The position numbers and the translations under genes were made by a program. This document shows, in pieces, positions 30,040-59,044 of a stretch of 64,000 bases of DNA. The stretch is from Dehalococcoidia bacterium (GTDB lineage: Bacteria > Chloroflexota > Dehalococcoidia > DSTF01 > JACRBR01): the NCBI GenBank assembly GCA_021731085.1, contig JAKFYB010000018.1:62001-126000 (forward strand), read 5' to 3'. A model generated the notes under the pieces. The model saw only the letters and a list, made by a program, of their open reading frames with translations. It ran no database searches and had not been told where the DNA came from. Numbering within the stretch: position 1 is the first letter of the stretch; each line of letters opens with the position of its first letter.

Positions 30040-30081
30040 TGTGTTACTCGCGACCAATCACCAATCTCGAATCACCACAAC

Positions 30082-30433: not shown

Positions 30434-30459
30434 CTTGTATCAAGGTCGGCCATTGGTGG

Positions 30460-32943: not shown

Positions 32944-33163
32944 CCCGCGCTCCGTTCCAAGAATTGATAACGTTGTATAACCAATCTAGCATAAACGCTT
33001 CTGCGGAGTCCAGTAGGGCCCCCGCGTATAAACGCCAGGGGCCCGTTAATTTCTGTCGTCGGGTGCGCGTCGGTGCGACTCGAGCGGCGTTCCCCCTGAT
33101 TTCCTACGCGGACGATCCTACGTCCGGACTACTTGCAGTGTCGCAACAACGGCAGCGCGTTGT

Positions 33164-34789: not shown

Positions 34790-35062
34790 CAACGCGGTGC
34801 GGCCTCCTGTAAAAAATAAGCCGTCTCGATCTCGGACGTCAGACTTGCGGTCTGTTGCCCTGACCGGTCCGGCTTCAAGTCCGAGTCTAACACAGGTTTG
34901 ACGATGCAAGGAAGGAATTTCCTTGCAAGTTCGTCTGTTGGCGAGACGTGCGCTATACTCTCCCGCCGCGACCATCGAGTGGACGCCGCACCAGACAACA
35001 GTTCGATTGTTCGCGCAGGCTCGTTCTCGCCGGCGCAGATGCTGACGAGAGGAGGGTCGCGT

Positions 35063-35158
35063 ATGAGCTCCGTGGTGAAGAAGCGCAAGAAGAAGATGCG
35101 CAAGCACAAGCATCGCAAAATGCTGAAGAAGACGCGCTGGCAACGAAAGCACAAGTAG
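35063..35158 (+). CDS. AURKAIP1/COX24-domain 31-aa protein, bS22-like ribosomal protein
   Basis: MSSVVKKRKKKMRKHKHRKMLKKTRWQRKHK with GGAGGG SD. Confidence 0.85.
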   Translation: MSSVVKKRKKKMRKHKHRKMLKKTRWQRKHK

Positions 35159-35185
35159 TCGTCGCTTCTGGATTGCATTCATACA

Positions 35186-35216
35186 GAGACCCTCGCAGAT
35201 CTTGCGAGGGTCTCTC
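35186..35216 (+). terminator. intrinsic terminator after the bS22-like gene
   Basis: AGAGACCCTCGCA/TGCGAGGGTCTCT 13-bp arms then CGTGTTTG. Confidence 0.8.
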
Positions 35217-35245
35217 GTGTTTGCACAGGATGCGGCTGTTGGCTC

Positions 35246-35268
35246 GTAGCGCGGGCCTACAGCCCGCG
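35246..35268. repeat. dispersed hairpin repeat A
   Basis: GTAGCGCGGGCCTACAGCCCGCG. Confidence 0.8.
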
Positions 35269-35300
35269 TTCCCCCGCATACGGGGGTTACACTTTTCGCA

Positions 35301-35825
35301 ATGACAATAGCGCTGAAGCTAACGCACGACGAGCCGCGGCTGGTGTATCTGGCACTCGTGTATCATCTGGGCCGCCCGGGTTCGGAACTGAACGCCGAGA
35401 CGATGCTGCCGCTGGAACACGGTCTGCGGGAGGTGAAGGTCGCCCTCGGCCGCGACATCCAGTCACCAGAAGCGACCATCGAACTTGATGATTGGCAGTT
35501 CCAACGTCTGGCCTCCGCAATCAAGGGCAGCGTGAACGAGTTTCGCGTCTACCACATGAGGGAGGGTGCAGTCAGTGGCGTAGCGCGGTGGACCGAGACT
35601 GCCGAGACGCTGTTTCCGGATATCAAGCTGGATCACGAAGCCGCGCTGGATCTCGCCGAAGCAATGATGATGCTGCAGCGTAGAATCGATAGGGCGGTCG
35701 CAAAGGCGATCAAAGCTGATTCTGCGTCCGATTCCTCATCGTCCGACTCCGACCCGCTTCAGCCGCAAGCCGATGTTCCTGCGCCGAAGTCAGGCAGATG
35801 GCCGTTCGGCAAGCGCTCGACATAA
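35301..35825 (+). CDS. hypothetical protein
   Basis: intact ORF, no recognised motif. Confidence 0.6.
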   Translation: MTIALKLTHDEPRLVYLALVYHLGRPGSELNAETMLPLEHGLREVKVALGRDIQSPEATIELDDWQFQRLASAIKGSVNEFRVYHMREGAVSGVARWTETAETLFPDIKLDHEAALDLAEAMMMLQRRIDRAVAKAIKADSASDSSSSDSDPLQPQADVPAPKSGRWPFGKRST

Positions 35826-35896
35826 ACCACTACCGCCGCCGGGTGCTGACTGCTACAATCACTCATCTGATATAGCGTCTTAGTATCGGCAGCCGA

Positions 35897-36112
35897 ATGG
35901 TAACCAGCCCCTTCGAGAACTACCTGGACCTTGTGGAGGCCGCACGCCTTCTCAATATCCACCCCCAGTCGCTTCGACGCCTCATCAAGCAGAAGAAGGT
36001 GCCGGCCGTCTTGTTCGCAGGTAAGTACCTGATAGAGCGGGACAAGCTCGAAATGTTCAAGAGCAACTACGACCCGCGCCCCGGCCGCAAGCCAATTCGG
36101 CGCCTCCTCTAG
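35897..36112 (+). CDS. small excisionase-type helix-turn-helix protein
   Basis: LDLVEAARLLNIHPQSLRRLIKQKKVPAVLFAGKYLIERDKLEMF. Confidence 0.85.
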   Translation: MVTSPFENYLDLVEAARLLNIHPQSLRRLIKQKKVPAVLFAGKYLIERDKLEMFKSNYDPRPGRKPIRRLL

Positions 36113-36141
36113 GGCGAGGAGCGTCGCTGCGTGTTAAACGA

Positions 36142-36168
36142 AAGGGCAGGCCCAACGGGCCTGCCCTT
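36142..36168 (+). terminator. intrinsic terminator
   Basis: AAGGGCAGGCCC-aac-GGGCCTGCCCTT then CTTTGTCGTTT. Confidence 0.85.
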
Positions 36169-36194
36169 CTTTGTCGTTTCTGCGACGCCGGTTT

Positions 36195-36455
36195 TCATCC
36201 GCCAGCGATTGCTGGCAGTAGATAGACCTCGGCATCGACGGGCACGGCCTGGTCCAGCGACATAACTTGCTCGTTGTTGATAGCGAATCCGATCTCCGGC
36301 CGCATCCCTTCCGCGTCCACAAGCCGATCGCGGAACCCCGGAAACTTCCCCTCCAGTGCGTCGATCACCTCCGCGAGCGTCGCGCCGACGACCTCGACCT
36401 TGTCCGCACCACCAGCGAGTGGCCGGAACATCGCCGGGATCCAGACCATCGCCAT
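36195..36455 (-). CDS. MoaD/ThiS-family sulfur carrier
   Basis: ALEGKFPGFRDRLV...VDAEVYLLPAIAGG (C-terminal GG). Confidence 0.85.
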   Translation of the reverse strand: MAMVWIPAMFRPLAGGADKVEVVGATLAEVIDALEGKFPGFRDRLVDAEGMRPEIGFAINNEQVMSLDQAVPVDAEVYLLPAIAGG

Positions 36456-36458
36456 CGA

Positions 36459-38702
36459 CTACGCGATCCCGCGCGTTGTCTCGAGAATCCTCCGCGGCGA
36501 CATCGGCAGCTGCGTCTGTCGGACGCCCGTCGCGCGCGCCACAGCATTCGCAATCGCCGCCAGCGGCGGCACAATCCCCGGCTCGCCAACGCCACGCACC
36601 CCGAATGGGTGCAGCGGGTTCGGCACCTCGACGATAATTGTCTCGATCATCGGCACGTCGAGCGATGTTGGAATCCGGTAGTCGAGGAAGCTGGAGTTCG
36701 CCATGCGACCGGTGTCGTCGTAATAGTACTCCTCGTTCAGCGCCCAGCCGATGCCCTGGACGGCGCCGCCCTGCATCTGGCCCTCGACGTAAGCTGGGTG
36801 CACGGCCGTACCCGCGTCTTGGATCGCCGTGTACCGAAGAATCGTCGTCTTCCCCGTGTCCGGATCCACCTCCACATCAACGATGTGGTGCGCGAATCCG
36901 CCACCCGCCAGGAAGCCCGCATTCACGGAGCCGCTGACCGTGAGTCCGACGCCGCGCCCGACGGTTGCAACCGCCGCTTCCTTAAACGTCATCGTCTTGC
37001 TTCCGTCCGCGTTCTTGAATACGCCGGCCTCAAACTGCACCTCATCAGGCGTCGTCTGCCATGTCGGAGCGAGGCGCTCCTTGAGAGCCGCGATAAGATT
37101 CTTTCCGGCCTCGTGCACCGCCATGCCTGACGCGAACGTTACGCGGCTGCCCGCCGTCACGTCGTTCACGCCGACCGAGTCCGTGTCGACGACCGTCGCC
37201 TTCACGTCCTCGAACGTGATGCCCAGCGTCTCAGCGAGCTGCATCGCCAGCGACGCGCGCGTGCCGCCGATGTCCGTATTGCCTTCGTTGAGGTTCACAG
37301 TGCCGTCCGGTTGCACGCTCACGTTCACGCTAGACCGAAGCCCCACGTTGAACCAGAACCCCGACGCCACGCCGCGACCACGGTTCGGCCCTTCGAGCGG
37401 CGTGTTGTAGTGCGGTGAGTTCAGCGCCGCCTCGACGCACTCTTCATGCCCGATGCGCTTGAACGGCATCCCCATCGGCCCGCGCGAGCCCTCCGCGGCT
37501 GAGTTCATGAGCCGGAACTTCAGCGGGTCGATTTTGAGTTGATCCGCGATCTCGTCGATGAGCTGCTCCATCGCGAACGCGGCTGCGGGCGCGCTCGGTG
37601 CGCGATAGTCCTGCGTGCGTGGCTTGTTCACAACCACATCGAACCCATCAAACTTCACGTGCTCGATCTGGTACGCCGCCGTCACGACCATCGTCGCGTA
37701 CATCGCCGCGGAACCCGGATAGGCGCCGTTCTCGTACGCCATGTCGCCGTACGCAGCGCGAAGCTTGCCGTCCTTCGTCGCGCCCAGCTTGATCCGGATA
37801 TTCGTGCCAGGCGTCGGCCCCGTGCCTTCGAACACGTCCGTGCGGTCCATCCGCATCGATACGGGCTTGCCCGTCGCACGTGAGAGCAGCGCCGCGACCG
37901 GCTCGAGGTATACGGAGATCTTGCCGCCGAACCCGCCGCCGATCTCGGTCGGGATCACCTTGATCTTGGAGATCGGGTGGCCAAGGATCTGCGAGACCGA
38001 CTCGCGCGCCGGGAACGATCCCTGTGTGCATGTCCAGATGGTCAGTTGGTCGTCGCTGTTCCAGTGCGCCGTCGCGGCCTGGGGCTCAATGTACCCCTGG
38101 TGCACCATCTTCGTCGAGAACTCGCGCTCGACGATCACATCGCACTCAGCAAATCCGGCCTCGATGTCGCCGAACGCCGAGACGGTCTGGGCGACGACAT
38201 TGCTCGGGCCTTCACTCGGGCCGGTGGGTGCGCGTGTGCGAAGCGCCTCGTGCAGGATCGGCGCGTCGGGGCGCATGGCCTCGCGCACGTCGAGCACCGC
38301 CGGCAGCACCTCGTACTCGACCTCGATCAGCTTCAGCGCTTCCTGCGCGACGTGGTCGTTGATCGCCGCAACAGCGGCAACCGCGTGTCCGCGATAGAGC
38401 ACCTTCGTCCCCGCGAGAATGTTCGCGGCAGGGTCAGGCAGCTTCGAAAGATCGCCGTCAGGGCCGACGATGTCCCGCGCCGTTACGACCGCCTTCACGC
38501 CATCAAGCGCGAGCGCCTTCGATGCGTCGATCTTTTTGAGATTCGCGTGCGCGTGCGGGCTGCGCAGTACGCGTCCCGCCAGCGCGCCTTGCTGTTTGAT
38601 GTCCGCGCCGTACTGTGCGCGGCCCGTCACCTTATCGACGCCATCCGGCCGCACCGGGCGCGTGCCGATGACTTTGTATTCGGGCTTGCTCGTCGTCACC
38701 AT
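36459..38702 (-). CDS. xanthine dehydrogenase family, molybdopterin-binding large subunit
   Basis: DGVDKVTGRAQYGADI, GGGFGGK, DYRAPSAPAAAFAMEQLID; not the AYxCSFR of form I CO dehydrogenase. Confidence 0.93.
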   Translation of the reverse strand: MVTTSKPEYKVIGTRPVRPDGVDKVTGRAQYGADIKQQGALAGRVLRSPHAHANLKKIDASKALALDGVKAVVTARDIVGPDGDLSKLPDPAANILAGTKVLYRGHAVAAVAAINDHVAQEALKLIEVEYEVLPAVLDVREAMRPDAPILHEALRTRAPTGPSEGPSNVVAQTVSAFGDIEAGFAECDVIVEREFSTKMVHQGYIEPQAATAHWNSDDQLTIWTCTQGSFPARESVSQILGHPISKIKVIPTEIGGGFGGKISVYLEPVAALLSRATGKPVSMRMDRTDVFEGTGPTPGTNIRIKLGATKDGKLRAAYGDMAYENGAYPGSAAMYATMVVTAAYQIEHVKFDGFDVVVNKPRTQDYRAPSAPAAAFAMEQLIDEIADQLKIDPLKFRLMNSAAEGSRGPMGMPFKRIGHEECVEAALNSPHYNTPLEGPNRGRGVASGFWFNVGLRSSVNVSVQPDGTVNLNEGNTDIGGTRASLAMQLAETLGITFEDVKATVVDTDSVGVNDVTAGSRVTFASGMAVHEAGKNLIAALKERLAPTWQTTPDEVQFEAGVFKNADGSKTMTFKEAAVATVGRGVGLTVSGSVNAGFLAGGGFAHHIVDVEVDPDTGKTTILRYTAIQDAGTAVHPAYVEGQMQGGAVQGIGWALNEEYYYDDTGRMANSSFLDYRIPTSLDVPMIETIIVEVPNPLHPFGVRGVGEPGIVPPLAAIANAVARATGVRQTQLPMSPRRILETTRGIA

Positions 38703-38724
38703 CGCAATGCTCCTGTCCCTATCG

Positions 38725-38754
38725 TCAGCCCTATGGGCCTCAGCCCTACGGGCC
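38725..38754. repeat. tandem 15-mer TCAGCCCTAYGGGCC x2 between subunit genes
   Basis: direct reading. Confidence 0.9.
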
Positions 38755-38755
38755 C

Positions 38756-39247
38756 TTAGGCCTTTGCCGGCGCGCGCCGCATGTCATCAGCAGCGTCGAG
38801 CACCGCCCGCACAATCTTGTCGTAGCCCGTGCAGCGGCAGAGGTTGCCCGCCAGCCAGTGGCGAATGCGCGCTTCGTCCGCATCCGGCTCCTTGTCGAGC
38901 AGCGCCTTCGCCGCCACGATGAAGCCCGGTGTGCAGATGCCGCACTGCAGCGCCGCGTTCTCGAGGAAGCTCGTCTGCAGCGGGTGGAGTGTCTCGCCGT
39001 CGGCCACGCCTTCGATCGTCACGATCTCCGCGCCGTTGCACTCAACGCCGAGCACGCAGCAGGCGTTTACCAGCGACCCGTTGACAATGACGTTGCAGGC
39101 CCCGCAGTTGCCGTTGTTGCAGCCTTCCTTAGCGCCTGTCATGCCGAGTTCATCGCGCAGCGTCTCAAGTAGGCTCTGTCGCGGTTCCACGAGGAAGTCG
39201 CGCTGTTCGCCGTTGATGCGCGCGCTTACATATGTACGTCCCGTCAC
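38756..39247 (-). CDS. (2Fe-2S)-binding small subunit of molybdenum hydroxylase
   Basis: EGCNNGNCGACNV, CGICTPGF, CRCTGYDKI. Confidence 0.96.
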   Translation of the reverse strand: MTGRTYVSARINGEQRDFLVEPRQSLLETLRDELGMTGAKEGCNNGNCGACNVIVNGSLVNACCVLGVECNGAEIVTIEGVADGETLHPLQTSFLENAALQCGICTPGFIVAAKALLDKEPDADEARIRHWLAGNLCRCTGYDKIVRAVLDAADDMRRAPAKA

Positions 39248-39249
39248 GC

Positions 39250-40125
39250 TCAGGCTCCCTTCGCTCGTGCGATTGCTGTGTTGATGACGTGCTTTGTGAG
39301 CACGCCCGCGAGATGCTTGCGTTGCGCAGCAGACCCGCGCATGTCCGTGATCGGCTTCGCGGCGTCAGATGCGGCAGCGGCGGCTGCGTCGATCGTCGCC
39401 TCAGAAACCGGCTTTCCCGCCAACGCGTCGCCCGCCGCCTTCACGTAGAGCGGAGTCGGCGCCACAGCGCCGACAGCAATGCGCGCCGACTCGAACTTCG
39501 AGCCGTCGGCGGAAAGTGCGACGCTGGCGGCTGCATTCACCACGGCGATGTCCATCTCGTTGCGCGGGATGAAGCGCTCGAACGCCGCGCCGCTGTTCGC
39601 CGCAGGAGCGGGGAACGTGATCGAGACGAGCAGTTCGCCCGCTTGCAACACGTTTTGCCCCGGCGCGGTGCAGAAGTCCTCGACCGGCACGTCGCGCTTT
39701 CCGCTGGGGCCGATGATGTTGCAGACGCCGCCTAGCGCGATCAGCGTCGGAATGGAGTCCGCCGCCGGCGAACTGTTGCAAAGATTCCCGCCCAGGCTCG
39801 CCCGCGATTGGATCTGGATGCCGCCGATCAGCGACGCCGAGTCGACCAGCGCAGGGAAGCGCTTCTGTACTTCCGCGTCACCGTAGAGTCGTGCACACGG
39901 TGCCGCCGCTCCGACGGTCAGCGACCCGTCGGATCCGAAGGAGAAGCTCGTCGCCTCCTTGATGCCTTTGATGTCAACCATGACGCCGACCTGGCGCCGT
40001 CCTTCGCGTGCCTGGATGATCACGTCGGTGCCACCGGCGAGGACGCGGGCCGTGGCCCCGTGCTTCGCCAGCGCAGCAACGGCCTCATCGAGGGACGCGG
40101 GCGCTACATATTCGAGTGCCTGCAT
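39250..40125 (-). CDS. FAD-binding medium subunit of molybdenum hydroxylase
   Basis: VLAGGTDVIIQAREG, RASLGGNLCNSSPAADS. Confidence 0.94.
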   Translation of the reverse strand: MQALEYVAPASLDEAVAALAKHGATARVLAGGTDVIIQAREGRRQVGVMVDIKGIKEATSFSFGSDGSLTVGAAAPCARLYGDAEVQKRFPALVDSASLIGGIQIQSRASLGGNLCNSSPAADSIPTLIALGGVCNIIGPSGKRDVPVEDFCTAPGQNVLQAGELLVSITFPAPAANSGAAFERFIPRNEMDIAVVNAAASVALSADGSKFESARIAVGAVAPTPLYVKAAGDALAGKPVSEATIDAAAAAASDAAKPITDMRGSAAQRKHLAGVLTKHVINTAIARAKGA

Positions 40126-40239
40126 CGTGTGCCTTTCCAGCCGGCATTCCGGCCCACAGAATCGTTATGCTGGCTACGGCATATCGGAGCCATGCCTTAG
40201 ACTCAAGCATAGATCGCTTCAGACTCGCAGGGACACCAC

Positions 40240-41340
40240 ATGCAGCTCGAAGTCACACGCGAAATGGTCCGACTCCTCGAAGTAGGCGAGCGCTTCGTGC
40301 TCGCGTCGCTCGTCGATGCGCACGGCTCTACGCCGCAGAAGGTTGGCGCCCGCCTCCTCGTCCGCACTGACGGCTCGACCATCGGGACGCTCGGCGGAGG
40401 CTGCATAGAAGCGGAGGTCTGGGAGAAGGCCAAAGAAGCATTCGGCGATGGCCGGCCGCTCGCCCTGGACTTCACCCTGAACGAAGACATCGCTGTGGAC
40501 TACGGCCTCGCTTGTGGCGGCACCGAACAGATTCTGGTCGACCCCACCTACACGGCCGAAGACCTCCCGCTCGTGCGCGACATGCTCACCGGTGCAGAGG
40601 GTGCGCGCCGCGGGGTCGTCGTCTCCGTCGTCGAGGGCGAGTCACCCGCAAGTAAGCTCGCTGTTTGGGAGGATGGCGCAACAACGGGCGATCTCGCTGC
40701 GGATCAGGAAGCGGCGCTAGAACTGGCGCGCCGTCTGGTCGAAGCGCCGCGCCCGAAGCCGACGCTCGTGAAGCTCGCCAGTGGCACGACCGTCTTCGCC
40801 GATGTCTTCGCCGAACCACCAGAGATCGTCATCATCGGCGGCGGCCACGTCGGGCGTTCGCTCGCAACGGTCGCGCACTTCGTCGGCTACAAGATCGCCG
40901 TTATCGACGATCGCACCGACTTCGCGAACAGCGAGCGCTTTCCGGAGGCAGCCGCTGTCATCGCGGGCGACATCGAAGAAGCGATAGAGGGCTACCCGAC
41001 GACGCGCAACAGCTCGATCGTCATCGTCACGCGCGGCCACAAGTACGACTACCAGGCTCTCGCCGCCGCAGCTCGCTCCAACGCCGGGTACATCGGACTC
41101 ATGGGCAGCCGCCGCAAGGTCGCCCTCATCTACCGTCAACTTATGGAAGACGGTGTGCCCGAAGAGCGCCTGCGCGACATCCACGCGCCGATCGGCCTCG
41201 ACATCGGCGCTATCTCGCCGGAGGAGATCGCCGTTAGCATCGTCGCCGAGATCACGATGGATCGTCTCGGCGGACACGGTGGCCCGATGCGTGCCAGCGA
41301 CGCGCTCATCACCAAAGCGCGCCCGCGTACGGTCGCCTGA
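40240..41340 (+). CDS. XdhC/CoxI family protein
   Basis: HGSTPQKVGARLLV, GTLGGGCIEAEV, IIGGGHVGRSLATVAHFVGYKIAVIDDR. Confidence 0.93.
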   Translation: MQLEVTREMVRLLEVGERFVLASLVDAHGSTPQKVGARLLVRTDGSTIGTLGGGCIEAEVWEKAKEAFGDGRPLALDFTLNEDIAVDYGLACGGTEQILVDPTYTAEDLPLVRDMLTGAEGARRGVVVSVVEGESPASKLAVWEDGATTGDLAADQEAALELARRLVEAPRPKPTLVKLASGTTVFADVFAEPPEIVIIGGGHVGRSLATVAHFVGYKIAVIDDRTDFANSERFPEAAAVIAGDIEEAIEGYPTTRNSSIVIVTRGHKYDYQALAAAARSNAGYIGLMGSRRKVALIYRQLMEDGVPEERLRDIHAPIGLDIGAISPEEIAVSIVAEITMDRLGGHGGPMRASDALITKARPRTVA

Positions 41341-41341
41341 C

Positions 41342-41953
41342 GTGCCGGCCGCCTCGTCGCGCATCGCTGTCACCGTCTCCGCCATCCTCCTCGCCGCGGG
41401 CGAATCAACGCGCATGGGCCAACAGAAAGCCCTGCTCCCGTGGCAAGGGACGACGCTCCTTGAATACCAGCTCGCCCAACTCGCCGACGTCGAGGAAATT
41501 AACGAGATCGTCGTAGTTACTGGGCACGAACCCGAGGCCATCGCGCGCATCGTCGAACGCGCCCCGCGAGCGCGCGTCGCGCACAACGCGAACTATAAGT
41601 CCGGCAAAGTCAGCTCCATCCAGGCGGGCCTGCGCGCGATCGCAACCGACACGGAAGCGGTTCTTCTTCTAAACGTGGACCAGCCGCGTTCGTCGGCCAT
41701 ACACGGCGCAGTGATCGCGAGTCACGTCGCGAAGCGAGTGCCGATCACCGTACCGGCACACGACGGTCATCGCGGTCACCCTGTTCTTGTCGCGCGATTG
41801 CTGTTCGACGAACTGCTCGCGATCAGCGAAGAGACGCAAGGCATCCGAGCCGTCATGCGCCGCCACGAATCCGAGATCAACGTCGTCGAGATCGATGACG
41901 CATCCGTGACACTAGACCTCAACACACCAGATGACGTCCAAGCCGCGCAATAA
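41342..41953 (+). CDS. MobA/MocA-type molybdenum cofactor nucleotidyltransferase
   Basis: ILLAAGESTRMGQQKALLPW. Confidence 0.9.
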   Translation: MPAASSRIAVTVSAILLAAGESTRMGQQKALLPWQGTTLLEYQLAQLADVEEINEIVVVTGHEPEAIARIVERAPRARVAHNANYKSGKVSSIQAGLRAIATDTEAVLLLNVDQPRSSAIHGAVIASHVAKRVPITVPAHDGHRGHPVLVARLLFDELLAISEETQGIRAVMRRHESEINVVEIDDASVTLDLNTPDDVQAAQ

Positions 41954-42046
41954 CAGCAGCTTGCGGATGCGATAGCGCCGACAGAACCTCACACACCCAG
42001 GGAGATCTCTGTGCCTCTGTGTTTTCGTCGAGCAGATCGAAGCAGG

Positions 42047-42718
42047 TCAGCCCGCGTCGAGATGACGCGTCTCTTCGAAGAACGACATGCTCTTGCGGTA
42101 CCAGTCCGCGCTAATCTTGCCTGTCGAATGCAGGTACGTCAGCAGCACTTCGAACGTCAGCACCGACACCAGGCGTATGCCGTCCTTCTCGAGGATTTGT
42201 CGCCCGCCCGACTGCCGGTCGAACAGCACGACGGCATCGCGCACGAACAAACCTTCGTCACGCAAGCGAATCGCCGTCGTCGCGATGCTTCCGCCGCCGG
42301 TGATGAGATCGTCCATGATGATCGCCGTCTGGCTTGGGTGGTAGATCCCTTCAACGTCCGTATCGAGATCGTCCTTGCGCGGATGCACGTAGACCAGCGG
42401 CACCTTCGCCGTCAGCGAGAACGCCTCTGCGACCAGGAGGCCGCCGAACGGTACGCCGCAGACGAGGTCGAACGGGTCGATTTGTGGGTTGCGCATCGAC
42501 TGCAGCGCCGCGATCTCCTGGTGCAGAATCTGCGCCGACTTGGCGAGCGCCGTCGGGTGGGCGATGAGGAGACGCAGGTTGACGTAGATAGGGGAGTTGA
42601 CCGTGGTGCGGCCGAGGGTGAAGTCACCAAACTGCACCGCGCCGAGGCGCCACAGCGTGTCCGCTAACCACAGGTTCGACTGGCCGCTTGGCGGGGAATC
42701 GCTCATGAGCTCCAACAA
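42047..42718 (-). CDS. pyrE: orotate phosphoribosyltransferase
   Basis: FTLGRTTVNSPIYVNLR; AIIMDDLITGGGSIATTA PRPP motif. Confidence 0.9.
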   Translation of the reverse strand: MLELMSDSPPSGQSNLWLADTLWRLGAVQFGDFTLGRTTVNSPIYVNLRLLIAHPTALAKSAQILHQEIAALQSMRNPQIDPFDLVCGVPFGGLLVAEAFSLTAKVPLVYVHPRKDDLDTDVEGIYHPSQTAIIMDDLITGGGSIATTAIRLRDEGLFVRDAVVLFDRQSGGRQILEKDGIRLVSVLTFEVLLTYLHSTGKISADWYRKSMSFFEETRHLDAG

Positions 42719-42924
42719 ACCAAAAGGCTCTCCTACATAGGAAAGCCTTTATCGTCGCGTCTTATATATCCGCATTTCGGCAGACACCGCAACGGGTAAC
42801 CCCCGAAACGGCCTGGGTGCGCGCCCGACCAATGGTCGGCTTCGGCCCCTTGGACAGCTCATTGTGTCGGTGTCGTGCCTTGTCGGCCTGCCCTGCCACC
42901 GGGTCTACTTTGCAGCAGGGCTAC

Positions 42925-42966
42925 TCAGTCAACTTGCCAGACACCCCAGCGGATGCGGTTGTTCAT
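42925..42966 (-). CDS. putative 13-aa leader peptide MNNRIRWGVWQVD upstream of pyrE
   Basis: AAGGAGGTGTCTTC-ATG; two Trp codons; promoter upstream and hairpins downstream. Confidence 0.45.
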   Translation of the reverse strand: MNNRIRWGVWQVD

Positions 42967-43034
42967 GAAGACACCTCCTTGCTGAACTCGGAGTGCTTAC
43001 ATGGCCCCTCCCGAGCTCACTCGGGATTGGATCT

Positions 43035-43064
43035 ACGATATGACGGATCGGAGAAGGCTGTCAA
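43035..43064 (-). promoter_or_regulatory. promoter TTGACA(43059-43064)-18 bp-TATCGT(43035-43040) for pyrE leader
   Basis: sequence match on minus strand. Confidence 0.5.
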
Positions 43065-43165
43065 TACCCCAAATGGCCCGCTCTGCGTGTTTGTCACCTT
43101 CGTTCACGTGATTGTGATGTGAGCGGACTCGCCGGGCGGGCGTATGATTGATGCGGAGGCGTCGA

Positions 43166-44056
43166 ATGGCTGTCCTCGAAGCGCCCGTACACGACCCGCC
43201 TACGCAAGTGCCGCACGCCATCGAGCGTTGGGTGCGGATCGCGCGCATCGTGCATCCCTTCCCGACGCTGCTGAACGTGGCCGCGACCGCCGGCCTCGCC
43301 TTCGTCGCTGCGGATGGCGCGCCTGATGGAGCGACGATCGCACGGATGCTGATCGCGATGCTCTTCGCGCAGTGCGCGATCGGCGCAACCAACGACATCT
43401 TCGACAGGGAACTCGATGCTGCCACGAAGCCGTGGAAGCCGGTGGCGTCCGGTCTCGTGTCTATGCGGGTGGCTGCGGGGCTCGCTGTGGCCTTTGCGGC
43501 TTCGGCGCTGAGCGTAGTGATGTCGTTAGGAGCGGCGAGTGTCGCTTTGTTCGTGCTTGGTACTGCGTGCGGGCTGGCGTATGACATGCGGCTCAAGCGC
43601 ACGCTGTTCAGCGCTGTGCCTTTCATGATCGCGATTCCGGTGTTGCCGATCTGGGCGTATGAGACGCTCGGGGAGTGGGATGACGTGCTGTGGTGGCTGC
43701 TGCCGCTGGGTGGGCTGATCGGGTTGGCCATGCACCTGGCGAACACGCTGCCGGATATCGAGGCGGATGCTGCACAGGGGGTGCGGGGCCTGACGCATCG
43801 GTTGGGTGTGTACGGGTCGCTTGTCCTTTGTTGGGTGGCGTTCGGGACGGCGCTGGGGCTGGCCGTTGTTATCGCGCCGGCTGTGGTCGAGAACGGGCGG
43901 TGGTTTGCGGTGGCGGTCGGGACCGGTGTTGTGAGCCTCGTGGTGGCGGTTGGCGCCTGGGTGGCCGTGCGGGAGCGGGCCTTGCAGTTCAACTTTGGGG
44001 CGATCAGCATCGGGGCGGCGGTTACGGCTGCGGGGTGGTTGGCTGCGGTCACTTGA
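43166..44056 (+). CDS. UbiA family prenyltransferase
   Basis: ATNDIFDRELDAATKPWKPVASG; multi-TM. Confidence 0.92.
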   Translation: MAVLEAPVHDPPTQVPHAIERWVRIARIVHPFPTLLNVAATAGLAFVAADGAPDGATIARMLIAMLFAQCAIGATNDIFDRELDAATKPWKPVASGLVSMRVAAGLAVAFAASALSVVMSLGAASVALFVLGTACGLAYDMRLKRTLFSAVPFMIAIPVLPIWAYETLGEWDDVLWWLLPLGGLIGLAMHLANTLPDIEADAAQGVRGLTHRLGVYGSLVLCWVAFGTALGLAVVIAPAVVENGRWFAVAVGTGVVSLVVAVGAWVAVRERALQFNFGAISIGAAVTAAGWLAAVT

Positions 44057-44176
44057 GGGGCCTCGCTTTGGCTCTCGCCGGAAAAAAGTGGTGTGAAAAA
44101 AAGTTTCCGAATAATAAGTCGTAAAGTGATCAATTAGCGGTGTTTCGCAGGTGGCGGGCTGCTGGTTGTCTACGAC

Positions 44177-44202
44177 GTGACGGGCGAGGGCGCCCGTCCT
44201 CC
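44177..44202. repeat. dispersed hairpin repeat B (GTGACGGGCGAGGGCGCCCGTCCTCC)
   Basis: related copies at 100-120 and 44855-44890. Confidence 0.7.
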
Positions 44203-44309
44203 TGGCCGGTCGGCCGCGATGCCGAGGCTGAGGCTGTTCGTCATGGGGCGAGCATGGCCTTTGTTGGGGATTAGCTCCAAGCGTCGGATGGCACTTTTCG
44301 AGATTGCCC

Positions 44310-44347
44310 TTGATATGGCCAGTGTCCCGTGGTAACTTGGTACCAAG
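44310..44347 (+). promoter_or_regulatory. promoter TTGATA-17-TAACTT overlapping palindromic operator CTTGGTACCAAG (44336-44347)
   Basis: direct reading just upstream of the 44361 ORF. Confidence 0.55.
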
Positions 44348-44360
44348 ATAGGAGGTTGAG

Positions 44361-44690
44361 ATGGGTGCCCAAGAGCCGCTGGGGGCAATCGCGCAGTCCG
44401 TCGACCCGAAGCAGGTGGTCGAGCGGGTGCAGTTGGGGGTGCGGATGGAGAAGAAGATGGTGAAGGTGCTGAAGGGGCTCGCGGAGTTCGAGGGCGTGAC
44501 GCTGGGGCAGATGCTTGAGAAGATCGTGCTGCACTCGTTCGAGCCGGTGCCGGGGGATGAGGGCGAGAGTTGCGCCAGTCCGCACGGGAAGAAGGCGCTG
44601 GCGGCGATCGCGGACCTCAAGCGGGTGTATGGCATGGAGTACGACTCGCACTCTGCGCGCGGGTTTTCGGAGGACGAGCCAGGTGCCTAA
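44361..44690 (+). CDS. small hypothetical protein, possibly ribbon-helix-helix-like
   Basis: AGGAGGTTGAG-ATG; RMEKKMVKVLKGLAEFEGVTLGQMLEKIVLHSF. Confidence 0.6.
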   Translation: MGAQEPLGAIAQSVDPKQVVERVQLGVRMEKKMVKVLKGLAEFEGVTLGQMLEKIVLHSFEPVPGDEGESCASPHGKKALAAIADLKRVYGMEYDSHSARGFSEDEPGA

Positions 44691-44700
44691 GCGGACGAGA

Positions 44701-44726
44701 AACACAGAGGCACGGAGACACAGAGG
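44701..44726. repeat. dispersed repeat D (AACACAGAGGCACGGAGACACAGAGG)
   Basis: related sequences at 42003-42024 (opposite orientation) and 13012-13047. Confidence 0.6.
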
Positions 44727-44789
44727 ATCGGGTGGGATCGTCGTGAGGTCTCGGATGCGCTGTCGCATGTTGTGTTCGTGCTCGACGAG

Positions 44790-44813
44790 GGCGCGGCAGA
44801 GCAGCGCCCCTAC
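44790..44813. repeat. dispersed repeat C, inverted orientation
   Basis: GGGCGCGGCAGAGCAGCGCCCCTA. Confidence 0.6.
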
Positions 44814-44854
44814 GCGACCGGTGGTTGCGCTTTCGCATGATGGTGGTTGACGCG

Positions 44855-44890
44855 TGACGGGCGGGTGACGGGCGGGGGCGCCCGTCCTTC
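44855..44890. repeat. dispersed hairpin repeat B
   Basis: TGACGGGCGGGTGACGGGCGGGGGCGCCCGTCCTTC. Confidence 0.7.
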
Positions 44891-44914
44891 TGTCATTCGC
44901 TGATACTCTTAGGT

Positions 44915-46117
44915 GTGCCGAGCAAACCTCACGCTGCAGTTTCTGTCGAGCCTATTGGGCTGTATTTGCACATTCCGTTTTGTACGGCGAAGTGTGGGTA
45001 TTGCGACTTCAACTCGTACGTGGGGCACGACCACACGATCCCGTCGTACACGAAGTCGTTGCTGACTGACGCTTCGCTGTGGCGGGCGGCTGTTGGTGGG
45101 CGGGCGGTGGAGACGGTGTTTTTTGGTGGAGGGACGCCGAGCCTGACGCCGCTGCCGGAGATGCAGTTCTTGATGGCGGGGCTGCGGGACGCGTTCGACA
45201 TTCTGCCGGACGCGGAGGTCTCGCTGGAGTCGAACCCGGGGTCGTTGACGACGGAGTACTTGCGCGGGCTGCGCGACATCGGCTTCAACCGGCTGTCGAT
45301 CGGCGTGCAGTCGTTCGACGACGAGGAACTGGTGTCGCTCGACCGCACCCACTCGGCCGACGAAGCGCGGCAGGCGTACGCGTCGGCGCGCGATGCGGGG
45401 TTCGACAACGTGAATCTCGATCTTATCTACGGATTGCCGGAACAGCCGCTGTCGAAGTGGCAGTCGAACCTTGAGGCGGCGCTCGATCTCGCGCCGGAGC
45501 ATCTGTCGCTGTACGCGCTCACCGTCGAAGAAGGGACGCCGCTGGCCCGCGACGTCGCGCGCGGTCGGACGCCGGCGCCGGACCCCGACGAGCAGGCGAC
45601 GCACTACGAGTACACGCAGGAGCGGCTGGCGCGCGCGGGCTACGAGCACTACGAGATCTCGAACTGGGCGCGGCCGGGGCGCCGCTGCCGGCACAACCTG
45701 ATCTACTGGACGCATCGCGAGTACCTGGGGATGGGCGCGGGCGCGCACAGCTACCTGAACGGCGCGCGCTTCGGGATGGTGCTGCTGCCGAACCGCTACG
45801 GCGAGCTGGTCGATGAGTCGGCGGCCGCGCAGGACGGCGTGATGCGGCACATCGCGAGCGCGGAGACGCCGCCGCCGGAGCTGGTGATGGCCGATGCGCT
45901 GATCCTTGGGCTGCGGCTGCTTGATGGCGTGGACGTGCGCGAGTTCGCTCGCCGCTACGGCGCGTCACCGGACGACGTGTACGGCGACATCCTGCGCGAG
46001 TTCGAGGGCTACGGCATCCTCGAACGCACGCCGACGCACCTGCGGCTGTCGAAGCGGGGGTTGTTGCTCAGCAATGAGCTGTTCCTGCGCCTACTGCCGG
46101 AGGCAGTGGAGGTGTGA
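44915..46117 (+). CDS. hemW: radical SAM heme chaperone HemW-like
   Basis: YLHIPFCTAKCGYCDFNSY; FFGGGTPSLT; FNRLSIGVQSF. Confidence 0.93.
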   Translation: MPSKPHAAVSVEPIGLYLHIPFCTAKCGYCDFNSYVGHDHTIPSYTKSLLTDASLWRAAVGGRAVETVFFGGGTPSLTPLPEMQFLMAGLRDAFDILPDAEVSLESNPGSLTTEYLRGLRDIGFNRLSIGVQSFDDEELVSLDRTHSADEARQAYASARDAGFDNVNLDLIYGLPEQPLSKWQSNLEAALDLAPEHLSLYALTVEEGTPLARDVARGRTPAPDPDEQATHYEYTQERLARAGYEHYEISNWARPGRRCRHNLIYWTHREYLGMGAGAHSYLNGARFGMVLLPNRYGELVDESAAAQDGVMRHIASAETPPPELVMADALILGLRLLDGVDVREFARRYGASPDDVYGDILREFEGYGILERTPTHLRLSKRGLLLSNELFLRLLPEAVEV

Positions 46118-46231
46118 GAAAGAACCTGTTTGTGCGCCAGCCGTTCCAACGAAATGCGGTACGCGGAGCGTACCGCAGGCGCCGAAAACCAGTCAACTTT
46201 GGCTCGCAAAAGACCGTTACTTGACACACCC

Positions 46232-46315
46232 CGCACCCCGCACCTGTCGGTATCGTCGCGGCGACGCCTTGCGTCGCCCCGATTATCGCGACGATACCGA
46301 CAGGTGCGGGGTGCG
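46232..46315. repeat. large inverted repeat, 29-bp perfect arms with nested 7-bp hairpin
   Basis: CGCACCCCGCACCTGTCGGTATCGTCGCG ... CGCGACGATACCGACAGGTGCGGGGTGCG; inner GCGACGC-ctt-GCGTCGC. Confidence 0.95.
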
Positions 46316-46586
46316 ACAGTGCGCGAAGTGTGCCCGAATTCTGCGCAAATCTCGCTTCTTGACGTATTTAGTTAGTCGTAGGGCTGTCACAGCCCCATTC
46401 AGGGGTTGACGAAGTAGAAGCGTACTCCGATAATCCAAGTGATTCCATCTCCACGGGGACTTCTCGCTCGGTGGAATCTAGGACGTCCAGGACGGGGCGG
46501 ATCATTTGTCAGGCTTGCCCGGGCAAATCGTGGGGTCCCAGCGAAGTCCTCAGCGTCCCATGGGCAAGCAGTAGCTACGTGCGAAT

Positions 46587-46614
46587 GAAGAGACACAATT
46601 CTTTGTGTCTCTTC
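46587..46614. promoter_or_regulatory. 12-bp-arm palindrome immediately upstream of the 46631 gene
   Basis: GAAGAGACACAA-TTCT-TTGTGTCTCTTC. Confidence 0.7.
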
Positions 46615-46630
46615 TGTTATTCTCCGTTCC

Positions 46631-47428
46631 ATGCAAGATCAGGTTGTCGATTGGTCATCGAAGGTCGTTGAATGCCTCGATAAACTTGGGGGCCGGGATT
46701 CGTTTATCCCAGCCGCCAAGCTTCGCGCGGCCGTCGCGCGGCCCGGCTCCGCCGAGAGTACCCAGTTTACGAACTGGCTAAAGGCCTCCGGCAAGACGTT
46801 CACCAAACTCCTACATGATACGGGTCTCGCGGTACATCCGCAGGCGGGCTCGGATTCGTTGGTGGGGTTCAAGGGAGCGGCTCTTCCCCAGCCCGAACAG
46901 TCTTTCACCTTACGCAGCGACGTGTTTTCCGCGTTTACGCACGCGAGCCCGCAACCCTACAGCTACATCCCAAGTCTGGATATTTTCACGTCCGATGCCG
47001 GTAATGAAAGTGATCGCGTCGACATACCACGAATTACCAGAGATGATCTCTTTGCCCAGAGGCGGGCGTTCGTGGCGTCCCTAACTGATGAGGAACATGC
47101 GAAGCGCCTCTCTGATGTTCTCGACTACTCACCGAGGGCACTCGCCGATTTCAGTCAGGCACTTGCTGAGTTGGGCTTGAAATCGCGCTGGCATGCTTTT
47201 CGCTCAGAAGATATTCGAGCTGCCGTCGAGAGGTGGGCTCAGTCATCGGACACACCTGTATCGCCTTCTTGGTTTGAGAGAAGAAGCGGTAAAGGTGAGA
47301 CGGCTCAAGAAGTGTTAAGCCACGTTGCACACCACATGACTGAAGATGAAATACGGTCGCTGACTATTCCCTTCAGGGCAGTTGAAGCAATGTACCGATC
47401 TCTGTCGCGAAGAAGACCCCAGGAGTGA
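46631..47428 (+). CDS. uncharacterised protein A; N-terminal winged-helix/LOTUS-like region and UPF0158-like helical C-terminus (tentative)
   Basis: intact ORF; LGGRDSFIPAAKLRAAV...FTKLLHDTGLAVHP; ALADFSQALAELGLKSRWHAFRSEDIRAAVERW. Confidence 0.65.
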   Translation: MQDQVVDWSSKVVECLDKLGGRDSFIPAAKLRAAVARPGSAESTQFTNWLKASGKTFTKLLHDTGLAVHPQAGSDSLVGFKGAALPQPEQSFTLRSDVFSAFTHASPQPYSYIPSLDIFTSDAGNESDRVDIPRITRDDLFAQRRAFVASLTDEEHAKRLSDVLDYSPRALADFSQALAELGLKSRWHAFRSEDIRAAVERWAQSSDTPVSPSWFERRSGKGETAQEVLSHVAHHMTEDEIRSLTIPFRAVEAMYRSLSRRRPQE

Positions 47429-47431
47429 ACA

Positions 47432-48182
47432 CTTGCAGCCGCGGCTAATCATTGCTGGGGTGCCCATTGGAGTTCTGAACAGACACAAGGGCTACAGGCC
47501 GGATGTACCAGGATGGGACACCTCGATTGTGCCGTCTCGTCGGGGAGCCGACCTCGGCACTTGTTGGCCGGACGTCATCAAGGTCGCCGATCAGTGCGAT
47601 CACGATGGCGCGCATATCCTGGCTTTTCATAATCCTGAAGAGGAGAGAAAAGAGTTTGAGGCCCGAGTCTATTCGAGGCACCGACTCATCTGGTTTGACC
47701 GAGATGACGCAAAGTTCTACGGATTGGCCGCCTTCGACGAGAAAGTAAGAGAAATCGTGGAATTTGAGCAGCAGTGGCGGGGCGCTATACGGCCGGGTGA
47801 AGCGTCGGCTGCGCTAGTCCTTCCGGAATCTGTTTTTGTTTCACGCAGTACAGTCGAGGCGCTTTGGAAGAGGGCAGCGAAACTTCGCATTGGCAAGGAT
47901 GAGATCGCCAAGGTCACGCAATTGCGAGACTCGTTTCGCAGTGAGCATTGGAAGGAAGGCAACTGGAGAGACTGCAAGGAACGGATATTCGACCATCGCG
48001 GCGCTAGACATGGATCGACGCCCGAGGCTAAGCGCTGGAAGTTCACTTTGGCACTTCCAGATGGGTTCCACTTCGACGTCAAAACCGCACGTGGCGGGCC
48101 GTTCCTGCTCACGGACTGCCTCGGAGAAGCCAAGGAATTTTCTCGGTACGCCAACGTCGACTGTCATGGGTTCGTCCGTTGA
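47432..48182 (+). CDS. uncharacterised protein B, adjacent to/possibly coupled with protein A
   Basis: AGGAG then TTG start just after the protein A stop; intact 250-aa ORF. Confidence 0.65.
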
Positions 48183-48207
48183 GGACGTCTACGTCATTAG
48201 CGCGCCC

Positions 48208-49116
48208 TTACGCTGCGACGGGCGTCAGCCATGATTCGATCCGCGCCCGCAACCCCGCCGCATCGAGACCGTGCGCACGGTCGTGGTGCTCGATCGAGCC
48301 GTACTGGCGGAACTCGATGTTTGGGACGCCGATGGCGAGCAGGCGGTGGGTGCGGTCGGCGAGCGCGGCTGAGATGACGCCGGCGGATGTGCCTTCGAGG
48401 TATGGCTCGATGATGGCCACCGAGTCGTCGGTCATGTGCTTGCGGAGACCTGCGGCGTCGAAGGGGCGAACGGTGGCGGTGTAGAGCACGGTCGCGTCCA
48501 TCCCCTCAGCTGCTTCGAGCACCCGGTCGAGCATCGGGCCGACCGCGATGATCGTCGGAGTGCCATCCGCGCCTTGGCGAACGACCTTCAGCCTGCCATC
48601 CTCGGCCGCATGAGGCGCAGAGTTCGTGGTCGCGTCGAGCCGGATGTAAACAATGTCAGTCGACGCAACAGCATTTCGCAACAAACGATCAACCTCATCC
48701 GGATGGCCGGGGACTTGGATGCGGACGCCGGGGAGGGTTGCCATCAGCGCCACGTCGCCGGTGGACTGGTGGGTTCGACCGTACGCTGGAGTGTCGTACG
48801 AGCCACCGATGCTGACGAGCACGCCGCCGACGCCCTGGTGCGCGAAGCCGAGCTTCACCTGCTCGAACGCTCGCTCGACGAGAAACGGCGCGAAGGTGTG
48901 GACGATGGGGCGCATGTCGGCGAGCGCCATGCCCGCGCCGACGTTGATGAGCAACTGCTCGCGGATGCCGACGTTGATGCGCCGGAAGGGGTGCTTCTGC
49001 TGCGCCTCCTTGAACTTGTCGCCGCTGATGTCGGCGAGCACGATGGCGACGCGCTCGTTCGTATCGAGCAGTTCGTTCGTGACGCTGGCGAACCGGTTGC
49101 GCATTTCCTCACTCAT
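48208..49116 (-). CDS. transketolase C-terminal subunit
   Basis: GIREQLLINVGAGMALADMRPIVHTFAPFLVERAFEQVKLGFAHQGVGGVLVSIGGSYD. Confidence 0.9.
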   Translation of the reverse strand: MSEEMRNRFASVTNELLDTNERVAIVLADISGDKFKEAQQKHPFRRINVGIREQLLINVGAGMALADMRPIVHTFAPFLVERAFEQVKLGFAHQGVGGVLVSIGGSYDTPAYGRTHQSTGDVALMATLPGVRIQVPGHPDEVDRLLRNAVASTDIVYIRLDATTNSAPHAAEDGRLKVVRQGADGTPTIIAVGPMLDRVLEAAEGMDATVLYTATVRPFDAAGLRKHMTDDSVAIIEPYLEGTSAGVISAALADRTHRLLAIGVPNIEFRQYGSIEHHDRAHGLDAAGLRARIESWLTPVAA

Positions 49117-49841
49117 GACTTCTTCTCCACTACTGCAACGACTGCTCGCGGGCGTCCGCGGTGTGGCTCCGTCAGCGCTGATTCGATTGAGGCGTGGTCG
49201 CGGCCGTCGATGGTTGCCGTGGACCAGCCTTCGACTTCGAATCGCTTCGCGATGCCGCCAGGCCAGGTCAGTGACGACGACTGGTTGTCGATGACGATGA
49301 CGGTCAGCGCATCGAGGCCGCGGACGAGGCGCGGCGCGACGGCGATCGCCTCGTGGTTGCTGCCCTCGTCGAGCTCGGCATCACCGACGAGGCAGAAGAT
49401 GCGCGCCGGATTGGCGCGCGCCCTCAAGCCCGCGGCCATCCCAACGGCGAGCGGCAGCCCGTGGCCGAGCGAGCCGGACGAGATCTCGACGCCGGGGATC
49501 AGGTTGCGGTCGGGATGCAAGCCGAGCGGCGAGTCGGGTCGGCACCAACGGCGGAGTAGTTTGGGGTCGAAAAAGCCCTTGGCCGCGAGGATGGCGTAGT
49601 AGGCCATCGGCCCGTGTCCCTTCGATAGCAGGAAGCGGTCGCGGGCATCATCGTCGAGATGCGCGGGGTCGATGCGGAGGATGCGGTCGTACAGGACCCA
49701 AAGCACGTCGAGCGTGGAGGTGGCGCTGGCGGAGTGCTTCTCGTCGCCTGTCATGTAGCTCATGAGGCGGCTGAGGTCCGCGTACGTGTAGGCCTGGGGC
49801 GGGGGTCGATCGAGAGTGGCGGCGTGTGTGTTGTCGTTCAT
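49113..49841 (-). CDS. transketolase N-terminal (TPP-binding) subunit
   Basis: FLLSKGHGPMAYYAILAAKGFF; SGSLGHGLPLAVGMA; GDAELDEGSNHEA. Confidence 0.92.
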   Translation of the reverse strand: MNDNTHAATLDRPPPQAYTYADLSRLMSYMTGDEKHSASATSTLDVLWVLYDRILRIDPAHLDDDARDRFLLSKGHGPMAYYAILAAKGFFDPKLLRRWCRPDSPLGLHPDRNLIPGVEISSGSLGHGLPLAVGMAAGLRARANPARIFCLVGDAELDEGSNHEAIAVAPRLVRGLDALTVIVIDNQSSSLTWPGGIAKRFEVEGWSTATIDGRDHASIESALTEPHRGRPRAVVAVVEKKS

Positions 49842-49848
49842 GGCGCCC

Positions 49849-49879
49849 AGCGTAGAACTTCAAGTAGACTTGAAGTCAA
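49849..49879 (-). promoter_or_regulatory. MerR/SoxR-type promoter: TTGACT-19 bp-TACGCT with SoxR-box palindrome ACTTCAAGTAGACTTGAAGT (49857-49876)
   Basis: perfect 9-bp arms; 14 of 18 positions identical to E. coli soxS-type box CCTCAAGTTAACTTGAGG; 19-bp spacer. Confidence 0.8.
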
Positions 49880-49899
49880 GGGCTGGAGACGACAATTTT

Positions 49900-50388
49900 T
49901 TGGCAGTTCTTTCCGACCACATCACGATCACCGAACTGAGCGCGCGCAGTGGCGTGGCGGCCTCCGCACTGCGCTACTACGAAGACCTGGGCTTGATCGC
50001 GGCGGAACGGACGAGCGGGAACCAGCGCCGGTACCGGCGCAGTGTCCTGCGGCGGGTGGCGGTGATACGCGCCGCTCGCACGATGGGGGTGCCGCTGTCC
50101 GCGATCGCGTCAGCGCTAAGGACGCTGCCTGGGAGCCGAGATCCGACTCCGGCCGACTGGGAGCGCCTGTCGCAGCGGTGGCATCGCGAGCTGGACGCGC
50201 GCATCGCCGTGCTCGAGAAGCTGCGCGATCAGCTCTCGTCGTGTATCGGCTGCGGCTGCCTGTCGCTCGAACGCTGCAAGATCTTCAATCCGGACGACAA
50301 GGTTTCGGTCGAGGGGGATGGGCCGCGGCTGCTGATGCCCGACGAACCTCGGGTCGCTACGAAGCGGGGAAGCCGGGGGAGAGCCTGA
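49900..50388 (+). CDS. soxR: SoxR-like MerR family redox regulator
   Basis: ITELSARSGVAASALRYYEDLGLI; CIGCGCLSLERC [2Fe-2S] motif; TTG start at 49900 proposed. Confidence 0.88.
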   Translation: MAVLSDHITITELSARSGVAASALRYYEDLGLIAAERTSGNQRRYRRSVLRRVAVIRAARTMGVPLSAIASALRTLPGSRDPTPADWERLSQRWHRELDARIAVLEKLRDQLSSCIGCGCLSLERCKIFNPDDKVSVEGDGPRLLMPDEPRVATKRGSRGRA

Positions 50389-50962
50389 CGCTTTCGAGCT
50401 GCGGGAAGTGATCGCCGTCGTGGATGCGCTGGAAGCATGCCCACTCACGCGCGTTCATCGAGCCGAAGAAGAAGTGCCGGAAGCGTGTATCGCGATCCAT
50501 GCCGTCGACCTTCTCGATCAGCGCGAGCAGTTCGTCGTGGGCGGACTGCGCTGATTCGCGTGCTTCGGCGATCGTCTCGAACTTCGCGAGCGTCACGCCG
50601 TCCTGCGACTCTTCCTTCTCGAGATGCGGGCCGAACCCGGGCGGCATGTTGCCCGCGCCGAGGTGCGCACTGAGGGCGACGGTCACGCGCTTCACGGTGA
50701 CGATGTGCGCCATCGTCTCGAGGATGGACCACTGGCCGGGCGCGGGCTTCCACGTTGCCTGGGCGTCCGTGACACCGTCGATGTTGCGCAGGACGTGGTC
50801 GTGGCCTTCCTGGACCGCGGCTGCGATGCCCGCCGGCGGCTTGGCCGCGGTGTCCTTGATGAACGTGAGGACGTAGTTGAGCGCGTCGTCGGAGAGGCGG
50901 GCGTGGCGGACGCCGTCGTCGCCGACCTCGTAGGTGATCATGAGCTGGTCGAACTGTGGCAT
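50357..50962 (-). CDS. DinB-family protein
   Basis: WKPAPGQWSILETMAHIV...FQRIHDGDHFPQL; overlaps 3' end of soxR. Confidence 0.75.
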   Translation of the reverse strand: MPQFDQLMITYEVGDDGVRHARLSDDALNYVLTFIKDTAAKPPAGIAAAVQEGHDHVLRNIDGVTDAQATWKPAPGQWSILETMAHIVTVKRVTVALSAHLGAGNMPPGFGPHLEKEESQDGVTLAKFETIAEARESAQSAHDELLALIEKVDGMDRDTRFRHFFFGSMNAREWACFQRIHDGDHFPQLESVRLSPGFPAS

Positions 50963-51029
50963 CAGTGGACCTCCGTTCGCCGTGAGTATCCTAAAGATAC
51001 TAATCAAGCGCCAGTGCCAATCGCACGAA

Positions 51030-51566
51030 CTAGCGCAGATCCGGCATTTCGCCCTCGATGCGGACGACGAGGGTGTCGTAGTCGCGTAGGACGTCCTCGA
51101 TGTCCGTACCGTCCGGGAGATTTCGCACGCGGGCGAGCACGGCGGCGTCGATGACGACGGGCCAGCCGGGTGTGTCGCCCGCCACGGGCCGGGACAGCGC
51201 TGCGGTCGCCGCGATGTGTTGGAGCAGCACGGCCTTGATCACGTTTGCTTCGCGCGGCTGGTAGAGGCGGAGGATGACGGCGGTCTTAGTGTTGCGCGGC
51301 GTCGCCGTTGCGCCGACTCGCAGCGCCGATGCTTCGCCGTCCGGCCAGCGCTCGTTCACGATCGGCTCGACGTCGTTGCCGGAGACAAGCGGGATCAGGC
51401 GTTCTGCGTCGCTGCCCAGCACGACTTCAACGACTTCGACTCCGGCTTGCTGGAGTTGCCCGACCTGCCACTCGATGAGCGTCTCGTCGTCGTCGGAGCG
51501 CATGAGGGCCAGCGGTTCGCCGTCGTGCGTGAGGTCTGTGTCGGCGAGAAGGATCGCTGTAATCAC
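51030..51566 (-). CDS. degenerate MobA-like nucleotidyltransferase
   Basis: fold-like pattern TLIEWQVGQLQQAGVEVVEVVLGSDAE, WPDGEASALRVGATA; lacks GxSxRMGxxK. Confidence 0.6.
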   Translation of the reverse strand: MITAILLADTDLTHDGEPLALMRSDDDETLIEWQVGQLQQAGVEVVEVVLGSDAERLIPLVSGNDVEPIVNERWPDGEASALRVGATATPRNTKTAVILRLYQPREANVIKAVLLQHIAATAALSRPVAGDTPGWPVVIDAAVLARVRNLPDGTDIEDVLRDYDTLVVRIEGEMPDLR

Positions 51567-52432: not shown

Positions 52433-52632
52433 CCGCGACGCACCGCGCGCACGCCTCGACCGATCACCGTAACGACGAGCGTCCATGCGGCGGCATTGAG
52501 GAGGACGTTTACGGGGAACAGCATCCACAGCCGCTCGGCCTTGCCTTCTTCGATGACGTTGCCGGCAGCTTTTCGCGTGACGAGGAACTGAAGCACGACG
52601 GTTACGGCGAGCACACGAAGAAATGTCTTCAT
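52429..52632 (-). CDS. small two-TM membrane protein
   Basis: hydrophobic ORF, overlaps phzF start. Confidence 0.6.
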   Translation of the reverse strand: MKTFLRVLAVTVVLQFLVTRKAAGNVIEEGKAERLWMLFPVNVLLNAAAWTLVVTVIGRGVRAVRRG

Positions 52633-53130: not shown

Positions 53131-53219
53131 GCGGGGTGTGTCCGGCCGGTGTCCTGCGCGTGCCGATGTCCCTGAGTCTATCCGCCTAGCGCTATCCGCG
53201 GAAGCGCGTGCCCAACAGG

Positions 53220-54934: not shown

Positions 54935-54935
54935 A

Positions 54936-59042: not shown

Positions 59043-59044
59043 CC

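Follow-up and report, generated by a model that had tools for sequence, protein, structure and literature searches.

Genes and features around the switch

The window analyzed here is a 64,000-nucleotide stretch, positions 62,001-126,000 of contig C2, within a 3.58-Mb Dehalococcoidia MAG of 52 contigs with 96.6% completeness and 0.88% contamination. The relatives of its HemW protein point to Chloroflexota, class Dehalococcoidia. At 42-43 kb, a PyrE-like gene on the minus strand faces away from plus-strand genes for a UbiA-family prenyltransferase and a HemW-like protein, with an intergenic gap in between (Table 1). The pyrE-ubiA gap measures about 0.5 kb in relatives as well, so there is no large insertion at this place. 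On the minus strand, positions 42,727-43,090 look by eye like an attenuator leader that may belong to the pyrE-like gene, with a promoter-like TTGACA, a Shine-Dalgarno sequence and a short frame MNNRIRWGVWQVD, followed by a hairpin with a T-rich tail. A REP-like, G+C-rich palindrome, GACGGGCGAGGGCGCCCGTCCTCCTG, occurs at 44,179-44,204 and 44,866-44,892 and has many copies across the contigs. A search for RNA families returned nothing besides one tRNA.

Table 1. Features of the window (positions count from its first nucleotide)
Feature	Position	Strand	Remarks
Left domain, C-rich plus strand	1..42298	.	GC skew about -0.03 to -0.19
Perfect parS TGTTTCACGTGAAACA	23228..23243	.	
Perfect parS TGTTTCACGTGAAACA	24391..24406	.	
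Switch interval, origin-type C-to-G	41127..43833	.	Best position 42,298; change-point likelihood; permutations
PyrE-like phosphoribosyltransferase	42047..42718	-	Left border of switch; named by sequence reading; no Pfam match at 0.001
Intergenic gap, 447 bp	42719..43165	.	Inside switch interval
Right domain, G-rich plus strand	42299..64000	.	GC skew about +0.2, decaying to about +0.03
Degenerate ParB-like palindrome TCGTTCACGTGATTGT	43100..43115	+	6 mismatches to parS
UbiA-family prenyltransferase	43166..44056	+	Four-fold-site skew +0.51
AT-rich dispersed 42-bp repeat AAAAAGTTTCCGAATAATAAGTCGTNAAGTGATCAATT	44098..44138	+	14 matching sites in this genome
HemW-like radical SAM protein	44966..46117	+	Four-fold-site skew +0.52

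A strand-composition switch at 42-43 kb

GC skew revealed that the plus strand turns from G-poor to G-rich at 42-43 kb. In non-overlapping 2-kb bins, skew was below zero in all 21 bins left of 42 kb and above zero in each of the 11 on the right, the cumulative G-C curve reached its minimum at 42,298, and the change-point statistic lay above all 20,000 block permutations of the bins. The switch is real, and both its location near 43 kb and its C-to-G, origin-type polarity are as the first-pass annotation had described them. The size of the jump, measured by comparing 10 kb against 10 kb, was 0.159 and not significant by itself: shuffled 4-kb blocks of C2 reached this value in 6.5% of cases, and in 36% when blocks were flipped as well. 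Significance is carried by the long, ordered and persistent runs on either side rather than by jump size.

The switch extends to synonymous positions in genes of both orientations. Four-fold sites of plus-strand genes change from -0.29 in the last 5 kb on the left to +0.51 in the first 5 kb on the right. Minus-strand genes, for which data are sparse near the switch and none are called within 5 kb to its right, are negative on the left (-0.10) and positive at 5-20 kb on the right (+0.26 at 5-10 kb).

Along the whole 231-kb contig C2, the strand to the right of the switch remains G-rich for ~25 kb, falls to zero by about 25-60 kb and then becomes negative, being as C-rich at 165-208 kb as it is left of the switch. 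Because the skew reverses again and the cumulative curve finishes below its level at 42,298, the minimum that had been proposed as a check on the origin assignment is present but local, not global. Outside the window, C2 carries at 208-231 kb many small, tightly packed plus-strand genes that, by their sizes, resemble a ribosomal-protein operon; its strand would be the lagging one by the local skew.

Gene order across the switch is conserved

The genes pyrE, ubiA and hemW are contiguous and co-linear in three relatives (L019, L020 and L021), as are ubiA and hemW in a fourth (L022). The broken gene order of an inversion boundary was seen in none of these four stretches, and none showed a consistent C-to-G switch at these genes. 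At four-fold sites, hemW has a skew of +0.52 here as against -0.22 to +0.11 in six relatives, and ubiA one of +0.51 as against -0.15 to +0.38; the congener G005, whose draft is without hemW, stands outside this comparison.

As relatives without a consistent switch share this gene order, a local inversion or an assembly join, either of which had been named as a possible explanation, is ruled out at this spot. The comparison indicates instead that the skew developed where it now lies, the junction itself not having been rearranged. Some of the skew on the right may be of older date, since L020 is G-rich on both sides of the locus and accounts for the ubiA value of +0.38.

Comparable jumps recur in the genome, most of them at parS

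We surveyed skew over 1.72 Mb on 14 contigs, ~half of the draft genome, comprising the largest contigs and others picked for carrying parS. With thresholds set after the data had been seen, 16 upward versus 7 downward jumps exceeded 0.10, and 10 upward (maximum 0.225) versus 1 downward exceeded 0.14. Upward jumps were located at C5 114 kb, C8 56 kb, C9 41 kb, C20 49 kb, C1 107 kb, C7 123 kb, C24 34 kb, C14 51 kb and C3 97 kb, in addition to the window switch. The survey thus returned the sharp upward jumps and gradual declines expected of multiple origins, as well as several origin-type switches on one molecule, here on draft contigs: the number of jumps or parS loci is two or three on each of C1, C3, C8 and C9. 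Because a single inversion produces both an upward and a downward jump, the two kinds should be balanced if a single-origin chromosome had been scrambled.

The genome contains 29 exact copies of the palindrome TGTTTCACGTGAAACA, putative ParB sites that we refer to as perfect parS, on 14 contigs, several of them at contig ends. The copies lie within a 36-40-bp module, CTCGCNNNCGATGCATGTTTCACGTGAAACATCACCAT, which is best preserved on C18. A canonical ParB is encoded on C29, and three more ParB-domain proteins are found in the genome. Seven of the nine largest upward jumps have a perfect parS at a distance of about 5 kb or less. The mean jump at nine parS loci was 0.112, compared to 0.0035±0.019 for positions drawn at random (no value as high in 200,000 draws), and parS position alone predicted the sign of the skew in 203 of 250 bins (81%) within 30 kb, compared to 51±6% for random anchors drawn from the same, partly parS-picked contigs (0 of 3000 as high). 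Around parS, pooled four-fold-site skew climbs from near -0.2 to near +0.3, an effect that has faded at distances of 40-60 kb. It changes in concert in plus- and minus-strand genes, so gene orientation provides no explanation.

Unbiased scans of all k-mers at the jumps ranked parS and its flank first and yielded no initiator motif. Strong jumps at C8 56 kb and C3 97 kb occur without parS. The window switch, unlike most other jumps, likewise lacks a parS within 18 kb; the two sites at 23-24 kb coincide with a small jump only. The first-pass annotation had used parS as an origin landmark; two perfect sites do lie in the window, but parS sites are scattered over 14 contigs.

Two elements close to the switch were considered and set aside. 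The palindrome at 43,100 is probably a chance match rather than a ParB site, because the other parS-less jumps have none; we estimate a probability of ~2% for an interval of such length. The AT-rich 42-bp repeat was not accepted as a common origin element, as it occurs at 14 sites, is absent from seven family members and shows only a weak link to the skew jumps (z 3.7).

Dispersed parS in a second genus

Allowing up to one mismatch, we counted 36 parS sites in this genome and 13 in G010, a member of another genus, compared to 1-3 in six of the eight family genomes. Matches to the extended parS motif are far more numerous here than in any other genome of the class sample. In G010, upward jumps of 0.11-0.15 were present at all seven perfect parS loci for which both flanks could be read; a one-mismatch site in the same genome showed no upward jump. 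The flanks of the G010 sites differ from those found here, which suggests that dispersed parS spread independently in the two genomes.

G006 carries a single parS, beside rnpA and yidC, and its skew jumps upward there; 140 kb of another of its contigs are flat, with a largest jump of 0.047. As the upward jump accompanies the lone parS and those 140 kb are flat, we take an upward jump to mark the origin in this family.

The canonical origin-side locus lies elsewhere

In this genome, dnaA is located on C42 (L004, 14978-16678), a strongly C-rich contig of 18 kb that holds no consensus DnaA box (TTWTNCACA) anywhere, including upstream of dnaA. The window shows no excess of DnaA boxes, with 23 near-matches versus 27 expected for a consensus that may not be that of the species, and a single perfect box near the switch, at 44,092; we thus agree with the earlier reading that there is no clear DnaA-box cluster. 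The rnpA-yidC-jag genes, with a parS, are on C18. Since other family members carry parS in the same neighborhood, C18 rather than the window holds the ancestral origin-side locus. Of the hallmarks of a canonical, DnaA-dependent oriC, the switch has the origin-type change in skew; dnaA and rnpA are on other contigs, and the nearest perfect parS is 18-19 kb away, not within about 10 kb. The switch is one of at least ten comparable upward jumps in the genome, and its designation as "the replication origin" finds no support.

Many fixed origins as the favored reading

We think it probable, by a modest measure, that the switch belongs to a set of about 15-30 fixed origins of replication on a bacterial chromosome. 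Skew minima alone are weak evidence for an origin, since rearrangement can create them (PMC4403523). We favor many origins because the conserved gene order, the asymmetry of the jumps, their coupling to parS and their recurrence in a second genus together meet this objection. Replication forks would diverge at the switch, and divergent forks would give rise to the skew; initiation would take place here and at the other fixed sites, with each origin covering about 50 kb in both directions. Copies of parS would accompany or follow most origins, where they could let ParB and SMC capture newly copied regions.

A fuller version of this reading, to which we give somewhat less than even chances, is that the 3.6-Mb chromosome has 15-30 fixed origins, one every 100-200 kb, normally with 36-40-bp parS modules that spread from rnpA-yidC-jag. 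The arrangement would have evolved two or more times within a single Dehalococcoidia family, in which close kin have kept a single parS locus, and the window switch would be an origin that lacks or has lost its own parS. Several points weigh against the many-origin reading: the lack of a parS within 18 kb of this switch and at two other strong jumps, the lack of a DnaA-box cluster here and upstream of dnaA, the ordinary jump size, the possibly older part of the right-hand skew, and a draft assembly surveyed on contigs partly picked for parS.

The chief rival, unlikely in our judgment, is that ParB and SMC translocate outward from dispersed parS without any initiation and leave strand asymmetry through repair or exposure. 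It would account for parS being the only common motif overwhelmingly enriched at the jumps, and for the lack of an initiator motif. Against it, we know of no mutational effect of ParB/SMC translocation; in addition, parS is missing at the window switch and at the jumps C3 97 kb and C8 56 kb, and there is little switch at the 23-24 kb pair. The movement itself, SMC traveling outward from parS, is established (PMC7333895).

We likewise give little credence to a single-origin chromosome scrambled by inversions and translocations, in which the switch would be a rearrangement boundary. Inversions do create skew flips, and gene order is very different between this genome (G000) and G010, but order across the switch itself is conserved, which contradicts scrambling at the locus. 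Moreover, upward jumps are more numerous and larger than downward ones, skew decays with distance rather than staying constant, and parS sits at upward jumps in two genera.

A multipartite genome, made up of many small replicons with one origin and one parS each, seems improbable. Many contigs do have one parS locus and one jump, and the genome encodes four proteins with a ParB domain, one of them a canonical ParB; however, several contigs have more than one jump or parS locus, one and the same parS occurs throughout and housekeeping genes are spread over the contigs. An assembly or binning artefact, whether through chimeric joins at short repeats or a mixture of genomes, is very improbable: although the MAG is a draft with several parS at contig ends, contamination is low, synteny across the switch is intact in relatives, random misjoins would not yield mainly upward jumps and the independent assembly G010 repeats the pattern. 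That the switch is the chromosome's single oriC, as its polarity and a parS 19 kb away might suggest, is scarcely credible given the canonical parS with rnpA-yidC-jag on C18, dnaA on C42, at least nine similar jumps elsewhere and the return to negative skew within C2.

Relation to known systems

The many-origin reading shares individual features with several described systems. A canonical bacterial oriC, with parS near dnaA, rnpA and yidC, shows the same C-to-G switch, and the ancestral parS of this family lies at rnpA-yidC-jag; the differences are the many switches per genome and, at the window switch, the absence of dnaA, a DnaA-box cluster and a nearby parS. Cyanobacteria such as Synechocystis and Nostoc replicate from multiple origins independently of DnaA, and their chromosomes, which have an irregular cumulative skew, are inferred to start replication at several places (PMC7198777). 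Their replication profiles are flat and the sites unspecified (PMC7198777), whereas the sites proposed here, from skew, are fixed and mostly marked by parS, in a genome in which dnaA is present.

In the skew N-domains of the human genome, sharp upward jumps at presumed initiation zones and gradual declines between them mark changes in fork polarity (PMC3320577); here the pattern occurs in a bacterium, at a scale of about 100 kb rather than megabases, and the jumps coincide with parS. Streptomyces and Listeria have 20-23 parS sites, a number similar to that of the perfect parS found here, clustered near one origin (PMC7333895), unlike the present sites, which are distributed over 14 contigs, most loci with a skew switch of their own. 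Skew minima were also used to propose more than one origin in bacteria by Gao 2015, who considered two per chromosome and required DnaA boxes and replication genes nearby (PMC4403523); here, more than ten switches are linked to parS in two genera.

A search of the open-access literature found no report of such an arrangement in Dehalococcoidia. A single origin per chromosome comes close to a rule among bacteria, and the known exceptions, some cyanobacteria, are without mapped fixed sites. If the many-origin reading is true, the relatives with a single parS would make the gain of origins in a bacterium directly testable, along with whether segregation sites must travel with origins and how neighboring forks terminate. 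In another family of the class, G052 has parS on eight contigs, eight sites in all when up to one mismatch is allowed, and is possibly a third case of dispersed parS.
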